From positions 1 through 64,000 of IMG/VR virus record IMGVR_UViG_3300027859_000009: a stretch of DNA of 64,000 nucleotides. One strand, given 5' to 3'. The notes below the pieces were generated by a model. That model searched no databases. It was not told where the DNA came from and was given only the letters and a program-made list of their open reading frames with translations. A program made the translations under genes and the position numbers. Source of the stretch: a virus. Below, piece by piece: positions 2,263 through 10,036 of the stretch (the first letter of the stretch is position 1; every line of letters begins with the position of its first letter).

Positions 2263-2547
2263 ATGAAGAAAAAGAGTATATTAAAAGAAGCTGATGAAAT
2301 AATCAATAACCGATCTGAAGAAAAAGAGAGACAATATGGTCCATTTTCAGAAGGCATGGATAGAGCGGCTTCAATATTTAACGGAATGACCGGCCTAGAT
2401 GTTACAGGTAAAGAAATGTATATGGCACTTATAGCACTTAAATTTTCTAGAGAAAGCTACAATCACAAAAGAGATAACCTTCTTGATGCAGTTGCATACA
2501 TAGGAGCATTAGATAATTACATAGAAGAAGAAGATAATACATTATAA
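2263..2547 (+). CDS. DUF6378-family phage protein
   Basis: 94 residues. The pattern ERQYGPFSEGMDRAA, TGKEMYMALIALKFSRES and DNLLDAVAYIGALDNY matches a small conserved family found in many phages, often near nucleotide metabolism genes. The family has no established function that I know of. It precedes the SGNH-like gene by 2 bp, so the two are probably co-translated. Confidence 0.65.
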   Translation: MKKKSILKEADEIINNRSEEKERQYGPFSEGMDRAASIFNGMTGLDVTGKEMYMALIALKFSRESYNHKRDNLLDAVAYIGALDNYIEEEDNTL

Positions 2548-2549
2548 TT

Positions 2550-3602
2550 ATGAAAACACCAGTAAAAGATATTTGGGAATTAGGAACATGGGCTAAAATT
2601 GCTATTGACGATGTTGTAACAACATTTAGTAATAAGAAGGCATCACATAAATCTGCATGGACATACATGCTAAAAAACCAGTTAAATCAAGCTGGTTTAG
2701 ACTGTGATATATTAACAAAAAACGATAATGTTCATGATTATGACGCGTGGTTTATCGTACTTCCAATGGAATTTCAAGGAAGTTATAATCTTTTTGGAGG
2801 AGCACAAGATGATACTGCAATGAGAATGCAAAGACTATTAGATTTTAAAGGTCCTATATTTTGTATTAATAGAGAAATGCCAGATATTGGTAAATTTGCA
2901 GAAAGTAGAATGAAGTCATGTTCTCAAATGTGGTCAGAACTTGATACTGAAAAACTTTCAGAAATTTCAAAAAATATAAAAACAATAGACCTTACATTAG
3001 AATCTGATACTTTTGTATTGGGAGATAGTCATTCAGTTTCAGCATATAAACCTGGAGCAAATATCTCTAGAAATGATGGGAAAACACTTTATGGAGTTCT
3101 CAAAGAAGGAATGCAAAATTATATTCCAGAAGGGACAAAGCATCTTATTTCATATTTTGGAAATATAGATATTAGACACCATCTTGGTAGACAAAAAGAT
3201 CCTCTATTATCAACAATAACCCTCGCTGAAGATTATATTAAACACCTTGAAACTTTGAATATTCCAAAAATTACAGTGGTTGCTTTATTACCAATTGAAT
3301 ATGAAGAGAGAAGAATTCCAAAAACAGGATGGTATAAAGGAACTCCATTTACTGGAACCCAAGAGGCAAGAACAAAAATCATGATAGAGTTTAACCAAAT
3401 TGTTAGAAGACTTTGTGAAGAAAAGGGCTTTGAATTTAAAGAATGGCCAAGACATTGGTATACAACGCATCCAAAAGAATTTGCAGACACTTATATGGAA
3501 AAACCTGGAAGCGTTCATCTTTCAAGACAATATTATCACTATGATTTTGATAGCGGAGAAGAGAATGAAGAACTTAAACAAAAAGTTTTTGGTTTATTTT
3601 GA
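2550..3602 (+). CDS. SGNH/GDSL-hydrolase-like protein
   Basis: 350 residues. The C-terminal part carries SGNH-type blocks: GDSHS at 158-162 (block I nucleophile serine), FGNIDIRHH at 203-211 (block III, G-N) and GSVHLS at 320-325 (block V histidine). SGNH enzymes are esterases, lipases or deacetylases. The N-terminal 150 residues are not recognised. Here the first half contains LGTWAKIAIDD and DAWFIVLPM. Possible roles are removal or addition of acyl groups on a surface glycan, but this is inference. It ends in -FGLF, a C-terminus shared with several replication proteins in the window. Confidence 0.5.
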   Translation: MKTPVKDIWELGTWAKIAIDDVVTTFSNKKASHKSAWTYMLKNQLNQAGLDCDILTKNDNVHDYDAWFIVLPMEFQGSYNLFGGAQDDTAMRMQRLLDFKGPIFCINREMPDIGKFAESRMKSCSQMWSELDTEKLSEISKNIKTIDLTLESDTFVLGDSHSVSAYKPGANISRNDGKTLYGVLKEGMQNYIPEGTKHLISYFGNIDIRHHLGRQKDPLLSTITLAEDYIKHLETLNIPKITVVALLPIEYEERRIPKTGWYKGTPFTGTQEARTKIMIEFNQIVRRLCEEKGFEFKEWPRHWYTTHPKEFADTYMEKPGSVHLSRQYYHYDFDSGEENEELKQKVFGLF

Positions 3603-3629: not shown

Positions 3630-3637
3630 TATAAATA
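3630..3637 (+). promoter_or_regulatory. Late promoter box TATAAATA
   Basis: An exact T4-type late box TATAAATA lies 13 bp upstream of the inositol synthase start codon. This would place the inositol cluster under late control as well as read-through from the upstream genes. Confidence 0.45.
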
Positions 3638-3650
3638 ATAAAAATAAAAT

Positions 3651-4898
3651 ATGAGCAAAAGCAAAAAAATTAAAGTAGGAATTATTGGCGTTGGAAATTG
3701 CGCTAAGTCCTTAGTAGAAGGAGTACAATACTACTCTGAAAAGCAAACTTCAGCAAATGGTATGATGCGTGAAGATATCGGAGGATATACGGCTGAAAAT
3801 ATCGAATTTGTGTGCGGTTTTGACATTGATGAAAGAAAAGTAAATACTCCTCTTGGAGAAGCTTTAAAACAAAGACCTAATAGCGCTTATGATATTGTTG
3901 AAAAAATAAATTCAAAAGCTCCAGTTTATGAAGGTCCAGTAATTGATGGTTACGCGCTTCTTATGGATGCATATCCTGAAAAAGACAGATTTTTAGTTTC
4001 AGAAAAACTTAGAAATAGCTCTGAAATGAATAGAGTTTCTTGGACTAAGAAAAAAGAAAACGAATGGAAAGAAAAAATAATTAATTTAATTAACAAACAT
4101 GAAGTTGAGGTATTAATTAACTATCTTCCAGTAGGTTCTCAAAAAGCAACAGAATTTTGGGCTGAAATTTGTTTAGCAACTGGTGTAAGTTTTGTAAATT
4201 GCATTCCAGTATTTATTGCGTCAGACCCATCATGGGAAAAAAGATTCATCGATGCTGGAATTCCACTAGTAGGAGATGATATGAGAAGTCAATTTGGAGC
4301 ATCTATTCTTTCTCAAATGTTACAAGAACTTGCCTTTGAAAGAGGACATGATGTCAAAGCACATATTCAAAGAAATGTTGGTGGTAATACTGACTTTTTA
4401 AATATGGAAGATAAAGGAAGACTACAATCTAAGAAAATATCTAAAGAAAATGTTATTAGAGCACAAAACGATATTAGAGGTATTTCTACTGAAAATAGCT
4501 TTTTACATGCAGGACCTTCTGAATATATTGCATACTATGGTGATAACAAAGTTGCTAACTTCAGATTGGAACTTGAAGGATTTGGAGGAGCTCCAGTTCT
4601 TTTAGATGCTCAACTATCTGTTCAAGATAGCCCAAATTCAGCAGGCGTAGTAATAGATGCTTTAAGATATGTGAGAGTTGCAAGAGAAATGGGAATTGTT
4701 GGAGCGTTAAGAGGCCCATCAGCATTTACTCAAAAAACTCCCCCAAAACAAATGATGTTTGCAGATGCAGTTCAAGAATGTGAGGCATTAGCAAATAGAA
4801 AACTAACACCAACTACGAAAAAACAAGTAGTAGCTAAAAAAGTTAGTGAAGTTAGAAGAGGTACTTCTACGGTTCAAGGAACTTTAAATAAAAACTAA
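3651..4898 (+). CDS. ino1: Inositol-3-phosphate synthase
   Basis: 415 residues. Converts glucose 6-phosphate to 1D-myo-inositol 3-phosphate using NAD as a recycled cofactor. Seen: Rossmann motif GIIGVGNCAKS at 10-20, LINYLPVGS at 155-163, GDDMRSQFGAS at 208-218 (the family GDD..S..G block), NTDFLNM at 246-252, HAGPSEYIAYYGDNK near 286-300 and QDSPNSAGVVIDALR near 325-339. All hallmark blocks are present, so the enzyme should be active. The last 35 residues are a basic tail (VRRGTSTVQG). Such a gene is rare in phages. It is followed after 2 bp by a HAD phosphatase gene and then an FkbM methyltransferase, which suggests one pathway. Confidence 0.9.
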   Translation: MSKSKKIKVGIIGVGNCAKSLVEGVQYYSEKQTSANGMMREDIGGYTAENIEFVCGFDIDERKVNTPLGEALKQRPNSAYDIVEKINSKAPVYEGPVIDGYALLMDAYPEKDRFLVSEKLRNSSEMNRVSWTKKKENEWKEKIINLINKHEVEVLINYLPVGSQKATEFWAEICLATGVSFVNCIPVFIASDPSWEKRFIDAGIPLVGDDMRSQFGASILSQMLQELAFERGHDVKAHIQRNVGGNTDFLNMEDKGRLQSKKISKENVIRAQNDIRGISTENSFLHAGPSEYIAYYGDNKVANFRLELEGFGGAPVLLDAQLSVQDSPNSAGVVIDALRYVRVAREMGIVGALRGPSAFTQKTPPKQMMFADAVQECEALANRKLTPTTKKQVVAKKVSEVRRGTSTVQGTLNKN

Positions 4899-4900
4899 AA

Positions 4901-5377
4901 ATGTACAAATTGAGATTTAATTTTTTAAGAAAGCTTTTTCAAAATGAAAAAGTTAGTAAAAGCAAAGAGGTTAAAAAAGCTAAAAAAGCTAAAAAAACCA
5001 AGAAAATTGAAAAAGTATACGGTTATGACTTCGATGGTGTAATTTCCATCGGAGTCCATCCGCGAAATTCAAACGATGTTATTATAACTGGAAGATGTAT
5101 AGATGAGGCAGAACATGTTTTATCTGTCTTAGATAAAAAAGGAATAACAAATAGTGTCTATTTTAACCCAATGACTTTAGCAGAACGTGGAAATCATACA
5201 CTTAAAGCTAGAAGATTTTCTGGAGCTCACAAAGCAAAAACAATTACCAAACTAAAAAATAAAAAAATATTAGTTACTAGGTTTTTTGAAGATGATACTA
5301 CTCAAATAAAATGCATATCTAAAGAACACCCAGAATTAGATATAGTACACATCAAATCTAATTTAGTAGAAAAATAA
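4901..5377 (+). CDS. HAD-superfamily phosphatase
   Basis: 158 residues. A lysine-rich leader (KKAKKAKKTKK at about 25-35) precedes a short HAD fold: motif I YDFDG at 42-46 (nucleophile and acid aspartates), motif II ITGR at 62-65, motif III lysine in HKAKT at about 111, and motif IV FFEDD at 128-132. It is only 2 bp from the inositol synthase and 4 bp from the next gene. A simple reading is that it dephosphorylates inositol phosphate to free inositol, a step done elsewhere by an unrelated phosphatase family; this is inference. A polynucleotide 3'-phosphatase-like role is an alternative. Confidence 0.7.
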   Translation: MYKLRFNFLRKLFQNEKVSKSKEVKKAKKAKKTKKIEKVYGYDFDGVISIGVHPRNSNDVIITGRCIDEAEHVLSVLDKKGITNSVYFNPMTLAERGNHTLKARRFSGAHKAKTITKLKNKKILVTRFFEDDTTQIKCISKEHPELDIVHIKSNLVEK

Positions 5378-5381
5378 AATT

Positions 5382-6056
5382 ATGGCACTTACAACATTAC
5401 AAAAAAACTTAAGAAAAGATTATATGCAATACTTGAATGCTACTGAAGATGTAGATAAGAGTATGATAACCGACTGTATTAAACACTATCAAATACCGGA
5501 AGTAGATTATAGAGATAAAATATGTTTAGACCTTGGTGGTAATGTTGGCGGTTTTGCTAAATTAGCAGTAGATAGTGGTGCATATAGAGTATACACTGTT
5601 GAATGTGATTCTAGAAACTTTTTAAAAATGCAAACGAGTTTTCAAAATGAAGAAAAGGTAAATGTTATACATGCTGCAGTTTCAGGAAGTAGAGAAGATT
5701 CACTCGATATATACAAAGGACAGAGCAAATCAAATCACTGTTCTACTTCCATTATCAAAAGAACAGGAAGATATCAAAATTACGAAAATGTTAAAAATAT
5801 AAATATCAAAGACCTTTTACATGTTTGTAAACCAGATATTGTAAAAATAGACGTTGAAGGAGCAGAATATGAATTAATTGATGATGTTTTAAATTACCAC
5901 CCAGAGTTCTTATTTATAGAACTCCACATGGGAAAAATGAAAGAACTTGCACAGCCAACTTTAGATAGATTAGATGCGTTATATTCAAGCAGCAGTGTAG
6001 AGCCAGTTATTGTGTTTCAAAGCGTTGCAGGTTACGATTGTTGGTATAAAAAATAA
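5382..6056 (+). CDS. FkbM-family SAM methyltransferase
   Basis: 224 residues. Seen: SAM-binding loop DLGGNVGGF at 50-58, acidic strand end VECD at 73-76, and KIDVEGAE at 155-162, the FkbM hallmark, then PEFLFIELH. The family usually O-methylates sugars or small molecules. Placed between the HAD phosphatase and a DNA-modification-like helical protein, it may methylate an inositol or sugar product or a hypermodified base (inference). Spacing to the neighbours is 4 bp on each side. Confidence 0.8.
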   Translation: MALTTLQKNLRKDYMQYLNATEDVDKSMITDCIKHYQIPEVDYRDKICLDLGGNVGGFAKLAVDSGAYRVYTVECDSRNFLKMQTSFQNEEKVNVIHAAVSGSREDSLDIYKGQSKSNHCSTSIIKRTGRYQNYENVKNINIKDLLHVCKPDIVKIDVEGAEYELIDDVLNYHPEFLFIELHMGKMKELAQPTLDRLDALYSSSSVEPVIVFQSVAGYDCWYKK

Positions 6057-6060
6057 AAAA

Positions 6061-7101
6061 ATGCTAGACCAAGTTAACATGGAAGTAGTCAAAGATGTTG
6101 GCTACTTTTTTAATAAAGTAAATGAGAGAGCACTTTGGCAGCTCGGTATAAATGAAACATATAGCAGCGGAGGAGACGCTGCTTTAGGGGAAACTGTAGA
6201 ATATTTTCATCCACAATTAACGCTTGACGACAGAATGCGATACATCATGGAGAATATCGTTTATTCTGGTCTTGATATCGACAACATTATTTGCAATACA
6301 ATTATATCTCACTTTTATGGAGGTAGAGGAATTCATCAGATATTAACTAAAGAAAGAGACCCTAAAAAAGCTCTTGTAGATTTTAAAAGACTTTTAGTAG
6401 ATAAAGACTATGAAAATACTATTAGAAAGAATTTAGAACATGCTGTAGAGTTAGGTTTACCAATCTATGGAACTACAGAATTAAGAACAAGTTTATTTGG
6501 AGCAGCAAATACTTATATTGCTGAATCTAGAAATCAAGAACGTGATGCACATAAAATCAACATTTTATTATGGGTAGCAAGTTTTATACCAAGAGGAATA
6601 ACATCGAGAATGTCTCAGGCACAATCACTTAAAGAGATGTATGATATTATCACAAATATTGAAGGTGTAGGACAGTATTACGGTTATCACTGCTCAACGT
6701 CTAACTCGGTAAACCCGGCCATTAATATAAACCACGATGAAAGATTTTGCGTACCAGGACCTGGTGCTAGACTTACTTTAGATATTATGTTTGGTGAAGG
6801 TTGTAAAATTCCTTATGGAGACAGAGTAATTTGGTTTAGAGAAAACTATAAAGACCTTATTGGCGAAATCTATCTTCATCCATCAACACATAATGTCATT
6901 GTCAATGGAAATCGAGTTCTTGCCGAAGAGCAAAATGATTTAAAGGTTTACGGATGTGAAGTTGGGTTATGTCAATACGGAGTTTACCATAGGCTTAGAA
7001 ATAACCCACATTTAATTAATAGACGAAAAGTTGCAAGAGCAGATGGGGCATTAATGGAATCTTTTTTCAATAATAATTATAAACAACAAACGCTTTTTTA
7101 G
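6061..7101 (+). CDS. 5-hmdU DNA kinase / thymine pyrophosphorylase helical-family relative
   Basis: 346 residues from the ATG at 6061; an in-frame ATG at 6010 lies inside the upstream gene and is rejected. Seen: FFNKVNERALWQLG near 16-29, EGVGQYYGYHCSTS at 201-214 and ERFCVPGPGARLTL at 227-240. The pair of a G-x-G-Y/F-x-x-Y segment followed by GPGA matches, from memory, the glycosylase-like helical domain of phage 5-hydroxymethyl-dU DNA kinases and putrescinyl/glutamyl-thymine pyrophosphorylases, which act in DNA base hypermodification. No P-loop is seen. The C-terminus KQQTLF resembles a clamp-binding peptide (QxxLF). Assignment is to the fold family only. Confidence 0.5.
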   Translation: MLDQVNMEVVKDVGYFFNKVNERALWQLGINETYSSGGDAALGETVEYFHPQLTLDDRMRYIMENIVYSGLDIDNIICNTIISHFYGGRGIHQILTKERDPKKALVDFKRLLVDKDYENTIRKNLEHAVELGLPIYGTTELRTSLFGAANTYIAESRNQERDAHKINILLWVASFIPRGITSRMSQAQSLKEMYDIITNIEGVGQYYGYHCSTSNSVNPAININHDERFCVPGPGARLTLDIMFGEGCKIPYGDRVIWFRENYKDLIGEIYLHPSTHNVIVNGNRVLAEEQNDLKVYGCEVGLCQYGVYHRLRNNPHLINRRKVARADGALMESFFNNNYKQQTLF

Positions 7102-8125: not shown

Positions 8126-8593
8126 ATGGCAAACATTGATAACGAATGTAAAGATTTAGAAGTAAAAGACTTCTATGAAGAATCAACAACACACTTAGCA
8201 GACATTATGGAAAACCAAAAGAAAATGCAAGAGCAGACTTACGGTTTTAATTTCGAAGATATGACAATTAGAGAAATAATGGACTTTTGGCATTGCAACA
8301 CACATGCAGTTGTAGATGAAATTCACGAAATGACAGATGCTCTTGGGGGTATTAAAGATGGCTCTGGAAACGCAGTGTGGAAATATTGGAAAAAAGACTT
8401 TCCAAAATATGATAAATTAAAAATTTCTGATATGAGTGAAGATGATAAAAAAGAACTTTATATGGAGTGGGTAGATATTCTACACTTTTTTATTAATTAT
8501 GCTGCATCTATAGGACTTGACGCAAAAACAGCATATAATTATTACTTTGCAAAAGCAGAAGAAAATGTAAATCGTCAAAAAAGAGGATATTAG
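8126..8593 (+). CDS. dut: Dimeric all-alpha dUTPase (MazG-like)
   Basis: 155 residues. Hydrolyses dUTP to dUMP and pyrophosphate, keeping uracil out of DNA and feeding thymidylate synthesis. Seen: EIHEMTDAL at about 72-80 (acidic metal site), AVWKYWKKDF, EWVDILHFFINYAASIG at about 112-128 (second acidic site) and the C-terminal KAEENVNRQKRGY, all typical of the dUTPase_2 family. It directly precedes the DNA polymerase gene. Confidence 0.8.
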   Translation: MANIDNECKDLEVKDFYEESTTHLADIMENQKKMQEQTYGFNFEDMTIREIMDFWHCNTHAVVDEIHEMTDALGGIKDGSGNAVWKYWKKDFPKYDKLKISDMSEDDKKELYMEWVDILHFFINYAASIGLDAKTAYNYYFAKAEENVNRQKRGY

Positions 8594-8629: not shown

Positions 8630-10036
8630 ATGATATTAGATATTGAGCAAAAAGAAAAAGAAGTAATAATAAGCTACTACGACAAAGAAGGAAAAGTAAG
8701 CTTTAAAAGATATCCAATTGATAAATTTGAAAATTGGGTTGTAACCGATGAAAAAGATAAATATAAACACCCACAACTAAAAAATTGGAATGGAAAGCCA
8801 ATTAAAAAAATTACTTCAAAAAGAGGATTTAATAAATTTAGTTTAGTATATTTCATTGAAAGTTTACCTGAAAAAGACCAAAAAGAGCTTTTTGAATCTA
8901 ACAGCCCTAAAACATATTTTATAGATATTGAAACAGAAATAGTAGACGGTTTTCCAAAAGCAGAAGACGCTAAAACTAGAATACTTAACTTTTCAATTAT
9001 AACGCCTGATAAAAAAGCAATAGTATTAGGCATTAAAGAGTTAGATATGAAAGGTCTTGAAAAAGACACTAATGAATATTTTAAATCTTTAGATGATGAT
9101 TGGTCCATATCATATTATAAGTTCGATAATGAGTATGATATGGTCTATAATTTTATTCATAAATTCATGCCTAAGTTTCCAATGATGACCGGATGGAACT
9201 TTATTAATTATGATTGGAAGTATATTGTAAATAGATGTAAAAGACTTCAAATAGATATTAGCGAAATGTCAGTTACTGGAAAAGTAGACAAAGTAGATGG
9301 TAGACCGTTACACATGGGAATTCTCGATTACATGCAATTATATGATAAGTATGATAAGTCTGTAAAAGTAAGAGAATCTAATTCTCTTGATTTTGTTTCA
9401 GGACAGATTGTAGGTCTTAAAAAGATTAAATACAATGGAGGATTACAAGAACTGTACGAAAACGATTATAAAAAATATGTTTACTACAATATAGTAGATT
9501 CTATTTTGGTATACTATATAGACCAAAAAATAAAGTCAATGGACGTTCTTTTAACATTAGCAAATATTACAAAAATGCCTCTGTATAAAGCAGCTAGCCC
9601 TGTTGCAATGACTGAAGCATTAATGGCTAGAAAATTAATGGAACAAAATAAAAGAATTGGAACAGAAAGAAAAGAAGATGTTGCAAAAGATGGAAAGTAC
9701 ACTGGTGCATTTGTTAAAGAGCCAATTTCAGGTTTTTATTCTGGTGTAAGTGCGTTTGACTTTGCATCTCTATATCCTTCAATTATGCGACAATTTAATA
9801 TTTCACCAGATTCATATATTGAACAAATTCCAAAAGAAGATATTGCAGAACGCAGGAAAGATAGTAATGTTATTGTATGTGAAAATGGAGTAGTTTACAA
9901 AAATAATGAATCAGTATTAAAACAAATTCAAAGTGATTTATACGCTCAAAGAAAAGAGTATAAAGCTATAGCTTATGATTATTTTGAAAAAGCAGCAATG
10001 GTTCAAAAAAAAATTAATTTAAAAAAGAACCCATAA
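8630..10036 (+). CDS. 43A: DNA polymerase B, N-terminal half (gp43-like, split)
   Basis: 468 residues. Carries the 3'-5' exonuclease (FIDIETE at 97-103; TGWNFINYD at 187-195; YYNIVD at 285-290) and polymerase motif A DFASLYPSI at 377-385. It stops after KAAMVQKKINLKKNP, before motif B. The missing palm and thumb part, with motifs B and C, is a separate gene at 15235-16440. The split lies in the loop before the motif B helix, so the halves could form a working enzyme by association (inference; T4-like phages with gp43 in two parts are known). Downstream lie an orphan late box and two terminators. Confidence 0.9.
   Translation: MILDIEQKEKEVIISYYDKEGKVSFKRYPIDKFENWVVTDEKDKYKHPQLKNWNGKPIKKITSKRGFNKFSLVYFIESLPEKDQKELFESNSPKTYFIDIETEIVDGFPKAEDAKTRILNFSIITPDKKAIVLGIKELDMKGLEKDTNEYFKSLDDDWSISYYKFDNEYDMVYNFIHKFMPKFPMMTGWNFINYDWKYIVNRCKRLQIDISEMSVTGKVDKVDGRPLHMGILDYMQLYDKYDKSVKVRESNSLDFVSGQIVGLKKIKYNGGLQELYENDYKKYVYYNIVDSILVYYIDQKIKSMDVLLTLANITKMPLYKAASPVAMTEALMARKLMEQNKRIGTERKEDVAKDGKYTGAFVKEPISGFYSGVSAFDFASLYPSIMRQFNISPDSYIEQIPKEDIAERRKDSNVIVCENGVVYKNNESVLKQIQSDLYAQRKEYKAIAYDYFEKAAMVQKKINLKKNP

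Follow-up and report, generated by a model that had tools for sequence, protein, structure and literature searches.

Why would a phage carry a gene for inositol-3-phosphate synthase (IPS) beside a gene for a protein that resembles DNA-hypermodification enzymes? This question is raised by a locus in the virus record IMGVR_UViG_3300027859_000009, of which we analyzed positions 1 to 64,000 (hereafter called the window). A sequence-only reading had suggested that four closely spaced genes make methyl-inositol, or attach an inositol-type group to DNA or to a surface glycan. Our best reading is that IPS and the small HAD-superfamily phosphatase encoded next to it (HAD) act as a transferable module that provides inositol for the hypermodification of a base, most likely 5-hydroxymethylcytosine (hmC) in this phage.

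Genes of the inositol cluster

The four genes lie in order on the + strand at positions 3651-7101, separated by gaps of 2, 4 and 4 bp as first described, and the following features surround and include them.

2263..2547, + strand: DUF6378 protein, 94 aa (PF19905, 1.7e-11)
2550..3602, + strand: BGT-N/SGNH hybrid protein, 350 aa (T4 beta-glucosyltransferase-like N part, SGNH C part)
3651..4898, + strand: IPS, 415 aa (PF01658, TIGR03450, PDB 1gr0)
4901..5377, + strand: small HAD-superfamily phosphatase, 158 aa (HAD motifs by eye)
5382..6056, + strand: FkbM-family methyltransferase, 224 aa (PF05050, TIGR01444)
6061..7101, + strand: HEL, 346 aa from the ATG at 6061 (PF18723, HMUDK_hel)
8126..8593, + strand: MazG-like NTP pyrophosphohydrolase, 155 aa (phrog_173, 4.9e-14; phrog_18650 dUTPase, 7.4e-9)

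The first gene of the four had been called a complete IPS, and profile searches bear this out. Its product matches PF01658 with 80.8 bits (cut-off 27, E 1e-22) and TIGR03450 with 292.5 bits (4.5e-87), a score under the equivalog cut-off of 638. The nearest structure is INO1 of Mycobacterium tuberculosis (Mtb; PDB 1gr0, E 1.8e-79), aligned in two stretches, residues 4-102 and 143-369, with the catalytic Lys regions in register. Homology to INO1 extends over the whole length, including the NAD-binding and catalytic blocks, and residues K261, K262, K265, K300, D326 and K362 are invariant among the IPS proteins of the window, Mendera and Cr30. From this homology, the enzyme is predicted to convert glucose-6-phosphate to inositol-3-phosphate.

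For the second gene, the HAD label holds: motifs I to IV (DxDGV, ITGR, HK and EDDxxQ) are all present and vary little or not at all among 11 diverse homologues, and the protein has no match in Pfam, NCBIfam or PDB. The third product was correctly assigned to the FkbM family, with 36.4 bits to PF05050 (cut-off 22.7, 7.2e-9) and 57.9 bits to TIGR01444 (cut-off 37.7, 1.5e-15). Its gene is not a fixed member of the cluster, being present at 89/152 class A, 15/53 class B and 0/12 class C loci (classes defined below). Thus, FkbM is an optional tailoring enzyme. The gene at 2550, by comparison, which had been suspected of belonging to the cluster, occupies a syntenic position in almost every relative and is fused to HEL in Aeromonas phages; unlike FkbM, it is part of the core. 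The DUF6378 gene upstream of it keeps its place in most window-type relatives of class A. The MazG-like gene is a frequent downstream neighbor at many class A loci, where its product might belong to the cluster and possibly removes dCTP or dUTP.

A T4-type box in front of the unit did not hold up as a promoter. The sequence TATAAATA occupies positions 3630-3637 and ends ∼13 nt ahead of the IPS ATG. It occurs 24 times in 64 kb, compared with 14.3 ± 4.0 in shuffled sequences, which is chance level, and is present in just 2 of 58 distinct IPS upstream regions of relatives. Because of this copy count, the two upstream regions and the short distance to the ATG, it is poor evidence for a T4 late promoter, and we rejected that candidate.

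Phage inositol synthases adjoin three kinds of DNA-modification genes

Among 119 phage loci found with IPS queries, 116 adjoin a DNA-base modification system, and the other three lie on sequence stretches of 4.4-8.7 kb. The systems are of three kinds. Class A (84 loci) is the SGNH and HEL type of this phage, class B (26 loci) combines a Tet/JBP dioxygenase with an amino acid:DNA transferase (ADDT) and a kinase, and class C (6 loci) consists of 7-deazaguanine genes. Control loci around clamp-loader genes show an A or C context in 0/80 cases and a B context in 11/80. Class B adjacency alone is therefore weaker evidence, since the ADDT-TET-kinase set is common near clamp-loader genes without IPS. 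These counts nonetheless give strong comparative support to the part of the sequence-only reading that couples inositol synthesis to DNA modification.

Searches driven by the partner genes give the same picture, with loci partly shared between the IPS, HAD and HEL scans. IPS is present at 79 of 80 HAD loci, the lone exception being cut at a contig end, and HAD travels with IPS in all three contexts; HAD is thus a near-obligate neighbor of phage IPS. IPS is likewise present at 75 of 80 HEL loci; of the remaining five, four are truncated close to the gene and one belongs to Aeromonas phage 44RR. Aeromonas phages 44RR2.8t and 31 combine an SGNH-HEL fusion with a dCMP hydroxymethylase and have a sugar-type Na+ symporter in place of IPS. 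In bacterial genomes, HEL turned up on no more than two contigs, both from a single MAG and carrying this five-gene phage cluster, so no cellular origin was found. In IMG/VR, an HEL query returned only four close loci. The sequence-only reading was open to refutation by genome comparison, had the four genes proved not to stay together, and it survived this check: IPS, HAD and HEL remain linked in related phages, together with the 2550 gene, with FkbM as the optional member.

Gene order varies. Arrangements include SGNH-IPS-HAD-FkbM-HEL (65 times), HMase-IPS-HAD-HEL-SGNH (20 times, HMase being a dCMP-hydroxymethylase-like gene) and TET-ADDT-IPS-HAD-KIN (20 times), and further orders exist. Class B partners were identified by Pfam as ADDT (PF18724; 57.2, 38.4 and 63.1 bits) and Tet_JBP (PF12851; 53.1 bits), and Caulobacter phage Cr30 belongs to this class. 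At class C loci, including those of Menderavirus, IPS and HAD are placed between FolE and QueC; Mendera gp42 (403 aa) has no family match beyond phrog_10773. In a tree of 53 dereplicated IPS rows the contexts switch repeatedly, requiring 11 changes where the minimum is 3, and with only well-supported branches counted, at least 6, 4 and 5 changes remain necessary for A, B and C, respectively.

A glucosyltransferase-like acceptor domain joined to an SGNH-type domain

The 2550 protein had been described as SGNH-like, which applies to its C-terminal domain and not to the whole protein, as its N-terminal third shares homology with T4 beta-glucosyltransferase (BGT). In profile-profile alignment, residues ∼16-136 align to T4 BGT 1-124, corresponding to the N-terminal acceptor domain. 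A 32-row profile gives an HHalign probability of 76 (E 2.3e-5, score 43.8), whereas the best of 100 shuffles scores 25.1 and unrelated background ORFs reach up to about 25. With a 53-row profile the probability rises to 92 (E 6.6e-7). The nucleotide-sugar-binding GT-B C-terminal domain is absent, and a full BGT was rejected on this ground.

The C half instead matches SGNH hydrolases. An AF2 model (pLDDT 84.9) finds SGNH/GDSL hydrolases as PDB fold matches with a probability of 1.0, and a sequence search finds no PDB homologue. In the 53-row alignment the SGNH residues S160 (53/53), N205 (52/53) and H323 (53/53) are conserved; G177 is conserved in just 38/53, and the Asp of the DxxH block is absent from the sequence. 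We know of no role for an SGNH domain in DNA modification.

HEL is a stand-alone relative of the 5-hmdU DNA kinase helical domain

The fourth protein had been placed in the helical family that acts on 5-hmdU-type bases, and the profile search agrees: HEL matches PF18723, the helical domain of 5-hmdU DNA kinases, with 52.8 bits (cut-off 25, 4.8e-14). This is the sole domain across its 346 aa, and no P-loop family matches. HEL was rejected as a 5-hmdU DNA kinase, as the N-terminal P-loop kinase domain is absent, and as an ADDT by sequence, since there is no PF18724 match and profile-profile comparison with ADDT gives a probability of 1.3. The HEL profile does not match Aes012_229, and sequence search reveals no PDB homologue. 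An AF2 model (pLDDT 85.9) has as its best PDB fold match the 5-PmdU glycinyltransferase gp46/PUGT (8z2n), although this match is weak (probability 0.93, TM 0.39/0.45, E 0.3); further weak matches include AGOG DNA glycosylases. HEL is probably a base-flipping transferase or a partner of one.

The acceptor base

Of 152 class A loci, 42 have a dCMP-hydroxymethylase-like gene nearby. These genes match PF00303, nearly all carry the RSNDxxxGxxxD pattern and Asp at the position equivalent to residue 177 of TS, and their best PDB match is T4 dCMP hydroxymethylase (1b49). Asp177 marks cytosine substrates (PMC8670742). Because relatives carry this Asp177-type enzyme, the acceptor is more likely to be hmC than the 5-hmdU-type base proposed earlier. 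The argument is drawn from relatives because the window record, a fragment of 80.5 kb, has no PF00303 gene.

A proposed pathway for inositol on DNA and its alternatives

Since inositol genes adjoin three DNA-decorating systems in many unrelated phages, we consider it probable, by roughly two chances in three, that the products of this cluster hypermodify a base of the phage DNA by adding an inositol-derived group. Genome context couples the steps into the following scheme. IPS, with clear homology to INO1, would convert host glucose-6-phosphate to inositol-3-phosphate, and HAD, judging from its motifs and near-obligate pairing, would strip the phosphate to yield free inositol. A phage dCMP hydroxymethylase, clearly homologous and encoded in relatives, would make 5-hydroxymethyl-dCMP and hence hmC in DNA. 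The BGT-N/SGNH protein and HEL may then act jointly on the base in DNA, with the BGT-like domain recognizing hmC and HEL flipping or holding the base in the manner of 5-hmdU kinase and PUGT, so that inositol could become joined to the hydroxymethyl carbon. By analogy to the class B pair of kinase and amino acid:DNA transferase, our guess is that activation of the hydroxyl by the SGNH domain would allow inositol, with the help of HEL, to take its place. In phages having FkbM, inositol might also be O-methylated. The likely benefit would be phage DNA shielded from nucleases. No inositol-activating enzyme (nucleotidyltransferase) was found in the cluster, which counts against the coupling scheme, as do the weak fold match of HEL to PUGT, its dissimilarity to ADDT at the profile level and the absence of a known SGNH role in DNA modification.

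Inositol, or inositol phosphate, could instead be the acceptor or donor part of a larger sugar-like group on hypermodified DNA, for example a glycosyl-inositol, and not be joined directly to the base. A glycosyltransferase of the BGT family (PF09198, 30.5 bits) or a TAGT (PF20691, 35.4 bits) does lie within the cluster of some relatives, TAGT in three class A clusters, and in Aeromonas phage Aes012 the homologue of the 2550 gene has a UDP-galactopyranose mutase gene beside it. However, most class A clusters, including that of the window, have no glycosyltransferase gene, and their recurrent core is IPS, HAD, SGNH and HEL; we regard this alternative as unlikely. It is also conceivable that the synthase makes another cyclitol or a carbasugar, as in aristeromycin biosynthesis, for placement on DNA. 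Its second PDB match is indeed 6k96, a five-membered-cyclitol-phosphate synthase (E 4.7e-45), but Mtb INO1 is a far better match and the INO1-aligned Lys and Asp residues are conserved, leaving this idea with a very slim chance.

Two further explanations dispense with DNA as the target. IPS, HAD and FkbM could act on a host surface glycan or lipid, such as an inositol lipid for superinfection exclusion, with HEL and the SGNH gene as unrelated neighbors. FkbM methyltransferases frequently act on glycans, SGNH domains commonly serve as polysaccharide esterases or acetyltransferases, and the fold matches of the 2550 protein fit such a role. Yet HEL and IPS remain linked although their gene order varies, the cluster revealed no membrane or lipid enzyme, and IPS and HAD recur beside ADDT-TET-kinase and 7-deazaguanine genes, so that DNA bases are the common theme; the surface-glycan part of the sequence-only reading is accordingly disfavored, and we think it improbable. 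IPS might otherwise be a general auxiliary metabolic gene, serving as an osmolyte or redox sink, whose modification neighbors hitch-hike in hypervariable replication-gene regions. The loci do lie near replication and nucleotide genes, where ADDT-type systems are common, as the controls demonstrate. Against this, the A and C contexts that the controls lack account for 84 and 6 of the 119 IPS loci, and HAD and HEL genes practically never occur without IPS, making mere hitch-hiking quite improbable as well.

Relation to known systems

The proposed base hypermodification resembles the glucosyl-hmC system of T4 (the dCMP hydroxymethylase gp42 with beta- and alpha-glucosyltransferases) in its T4-like phage setting, in the Asp177-type dCMP hydroxymethylase of relatives and in the BGT N-terminal domain of the 2550 protein. 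It differs in that SGNH takes the place of the UDP-sugar-binding GT-B C-terminal domain, and in the addition of HEL and an inositol supply. Phages 31 and Aes012 and six large relatives were searched for such enzymes: a T4-type BGT was found in neither phage and was missing from five of the relatives, and neither the phages nor the relatives gave an AGT-type match.

Thymidine hypermodification reportedly uses a 5-hmdU DNA kinase and amino acid:DNA transferases (PUGT/ADDT). The PF18723 domain of HEL, whose modeled fold comes closest to PUGT, though weakly, recalls this route, as do class B relatives with genuine PF18724 ADDT and a P-loop kinase; here, in contrast, HEL stands alone without a kinase domain, inositol and not an amino acid is expected to serve as the nucleophile, and the base is probably cytosine. 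Class B IPS loci also share Tet_JBP, and sometimes TAGT, with Tet/JBP and TAGT cytosine hypermodification, but add IPS and HAD, and the window type uses dCMP hydroxymethylase in place of Tet. Class C loci, with IPS and HAD between FolE and QueC, recall phage 7-deazaguanine DNA modification (FolE/QueC/QueE), whereas the window cluster has no such genes. Finally, the IPS itself is nearest to actinobacterial INO1, of the mycothiol or PI precursor pathway, although no PI or mycothiol genes are seen in the cluster and the partner phosphatase is a small HAD protein, not an IMPase-family enzyme.

Implications

To our knowledge, inositol has not been described on DNA, and the literature searched contains no report that connects it with phage DNA. 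Inositol and glucose are isomers, so inositol-hmC and the glucosyl-hmC of T4 would be identical in mass, and inositol-hmC could therefore be missed or misread by mass alone. We give even chances to a broader proposal: that inositol-bearing bases are a widespread, unreported modification class, in which IPS and HAD feed three unrelated machineries (hmC, Tet/kinase/transferase and 7-deazaguanine), and that coupling in the hmC type is done by a new hybrid enzyme, which joins the acceptor domain of a T4 glucosyltransferase to an SGNH active site and cooperates with a kinase-less 5-hmdU-kinase domain. If inositol is indeed attached to phage DNA, a cyclitol would join the DNA alphabet, a function could be assigned to the IPS genes that stand as orphans in the Menderavirus and phage Cr30 annotations, and the uncharacterized families phrog_13881, phrog_17781 and phrog_33138, along with the HAD family, would acquire a testable role.

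Gene content of the cluster

A sequence-only reading had grouped four genes of the window into one unit, and the four ORFs are indeed present, separated by gaps of 2, 4 and 4 bp and preceded by an SGNH-like gene:

2550-3602, SGNH-like protein, 350 aa (the 2550 protein)
3651-4898, + strand, inositol-3-phosphate synthase (IPS)
4901-5377, + strand, small HAD phosphatase
5382-6056, + strand, FkbM methyltransferase
6061-7101, helical-domain protein (HEL)

Domain and PDB searches match the first product to PF01658, TIGR03450 (4.5e-87) and Mtb INO1 (PDB 1gr0, 1.8e-79). Domain searches identify the third as FkbM (PF05050, TIGR01444) and place the HAD-like product in no family. The suggested kinship of the fourth to 5-hmdU DNA kinase families is borne out by a domain match to PF18723 (HMUDK_hel), and HEL is related to the kinase's helical domain but stands alone, with no kinase domain attached. 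The proposed T4-type box before the unit (TATAAATA, 3630-3637) is not counted as evidence, because it is one of 24 copies in the window versus 14.3 expected and because, among 58 distinct IPS genes in relatives, just 2 have it upstream.

The phage probably infects a member of the Bacteroidota: its ribonucleotide reductase is nearest (58%) to that of Flavobacterium phage immuto, and its large-terminase-like protein comes closest to those of unannotated uncultured phages and then to that of Tenacibaculum phage PTm1. A B-family-like DNA polymerase ORF (8630-10036) encodes just 468 aa, and comparable short matches in relatives suggest a naturally split enzyme. A SET-domain gene (PF00856, 1868-2233) lies upstream of the cluster, and close relatives have similar genes; in one locus (L084) a short SET-like ORF comes after HEL.

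Co-occurrence in related phages

That the genes should stay together in related phages had been set as a check, and they do in searches started from HEL, IPS or HAD. The HEL-started search gave 37 close loci, nearly all with the whole set, while a broad HEL profile found IPS in 75 of 80 loci (4 of the remaining 5 are cut close to the gene) and the HAD-started search found it in 79 of 80; loci from separate scans overlap. Three different IPS queries gave 119 loci, in which the context is SGNH and/or HEL in 84 (class A), amino acid:DNA transferase (ADDT) in 26 (class B) and FolE/QueC in 6 (class C), the 3 loci with none of these being short stretches. Clamp-loader control loci show class A or C context in 0 of 80 and class B in 11, 10 of these without IPS. 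Thus, these phages commonly have a TET-ADDT-kinase system with no IPS beside it, and the IPS+HAD pair is an addition to such systems. Cluster gene order varies among loci, which argues against mere conservation of the phage backbone. Two contigs of the MAG Planctomycetaceae bacterium TMED10 (L396, L397) carry a complete HMase-IPS-HAD-HEL-SGNH cluster and are probably phage contigs binned into a bacterial genome.

The 2550 protein and HEL

The SGNH-like gene, thought possibly to belong to the cluster, is tied to it by a natural fusion: PHROG 17781, a 795-aa family comprising ORF233c of Aeromonas phage 31 and its 44RR homologues, matches the 2550 protein in its first half and HEL in its second. 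Over the N-terminal domain of T4 beta-glucosyltransferase (BGT), the 2550-family profile gives a match scoring 43.8 (E 2.3e-5), against 25.1 for the best of 100 shuffles and up to about 25 for unrelated background ORFs. With 53 diverse members the match reaches probability 92 (E 6.6e-7), and the profile also matches the relatives' BGT-like proteins. The position aligned by eye to Asp100, the catalytic residue of BGT, is Glu or Asp in 40 of 53. In the AlphaFold model (pLDDT 84.9, from shallow alignments) the C-terminal half adopts an SGNH-hydrolase fold (probability 1.0 to GDSL lipases/acetylesterases). Ser160 and His323 are invariant and Asn205 occurs in 52 of 53, while the block II glycine is not conserved and the classical SGNH Asp is absent. 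The profile match and the modeled fold with these three residues indicate a putative hybrid, in which a DNA-glucosyltransferase acceptor-binding domain is joined to an SGNH active site in place of the sugar-nucleotide domain.

For HEL, 16 columns are invariant among 11 very diverse members. The top PDB match of its AlphaFold model (pLDDT 85.9, likewise from shallow alignments) is the 5-phosphomethyl-dU glycinyltransferase PUGT (8z2n), with a probability of 0.93 but a weak E of 0.3, and weak matches thereafter include AGOG 8-oxoguanine DNA glycosylases; together these suggest a fold of the base-flipping type. Sequence-profile comparison shows no relationship between HEL and ADDT.

The probable modified base and a proposed route

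Near-complete relatives carry a canonical thymidylate synthase (TS) and a second, divergent TS-family gene whose top PDB match is T4 dCMP hydroxymethylase (8.3e-15). Of 152 class A loci, 42 include such a gene; in L028 it follows HEL and a MazG-like gene, and many other loci have it upstream of IPS or SGNH. These proteins almost always have Asp at the TS-177 position, a mark of a cytosine substrate (PMC8670742). Aeromonas phages 31 and Aes012 carry a gp42-like gene and give no matches to T4 BGT or AGT; the 80.5 kb window record, itself a fragment, holds no TS-family gene.

In the route that we propose, IPS would convert glucose-6-phosphate to inositol-3-phosphate, HAD would release inositol, and the 2550 protein with HEL would couple it to 5-hydroxymethylcytosine in DNA, FkbM, where present, O-methylating the inositol. 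By analogy with the class B kinase and ADDT, SGNH might activate the hydroxymethyl group and HEL let inositol displace it; other chemistries are possible. Homology backs the first enzyme and the hydroxymethylase, and the remaining steps rest on context and inference. Searches of the literature outside subscription journals gave no report of inositol on phage DNA, an absence that does not by itself make the idea new.

IPS is genuinely missing only from Aeromonas phages 44RR and 31, in which a sodium/solute symporter (PDB 2xq2, E 9e-104) lies directly upstream of the SGNH-HEL fusion:

L003:3271-4791, phage 31 ORF234c, vSGLT/SGLT-branch symporter
L374:5154-6674, 44RR, vSGLT/SGLT-branch symporter

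Because the SGLT branch also contains animal inositol carriers, import may replace synthesis in these phages, although a sugar is an equally possible cargo.

Accessory genes

Further genes occur in or beside clusters:

L030:8290-9309, also L014, L016, L017, L103, L067: BGT-family glycosyltransferase (PF09198, 30.5 bits) inside the cluster, in most between HAD and FkbM
L025:9152-9994, also L100, L043: TET-associated glycosyltransferase (PF20691, 35.4 bits) inside or adjoining, in the FkbM place in L025 and L100
L029:6615-7490, also L086, L027: PLP-dependent cysteine-synthase-like gene (PF00291, 229 bits) between SGNH and IPS
L036:8620-9180, also L038, L081: 2OG-Fe(II) oxygenase (PF13640) between HEL and MazG
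L045:11278-11772 and relatives: cREC_REC cyclic-phosphate-processing receiver domain protein (75.5 bits) between HEL and MazG, in up to 19 loci
L124:2785-6059, Aeromonas phage Aes012: one unit of UDP-galactopyranose mutase, 358-aa protein and SGNH homologue

The Aes012 unit occupies the same site, flanked by motA and nrdC.10, and may point to a galactofuranose-type variant.

IPS+HAD in three modification systems

Phages of the window type, Menderavirus (41%) and Cr30 (40%) all have the same small HAD gene behind IPS. On a tree built from 53 dereplicated IPS proteins, context must change 11 times where the minimum is 3; counting well-supported branches alone, at least 6, 4 and 5 changes are required for classes A, B and C. 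Class A has dCMP hydroxymethylase or 5-hmdU-kinase-type genes; class B has ADDT with a Tet/JBP dioxygenase (43 of 53) and a kinase (45 of 53); class C has 7-deazaguanine synthesis genes. An earlier account of the Menderavirus cluster presented it as queuosine genes and listed IPS separately, among genes of bacterial origin (PMC9025141). Mendera gp42 (L001:11449-12657, 403 aa), between QueC and QueE, belongs to phrog_10773, beyond which it has no recognized family; of the 12 IPS loci of class C, 7 have it, and it is a candidate for the class C transferase. The context changes and the common HAD gene indicate that the IPS+HAD pair has repeatedly passed between three modification machineries, whose common theme, judged from their gene content, is the DNA base.
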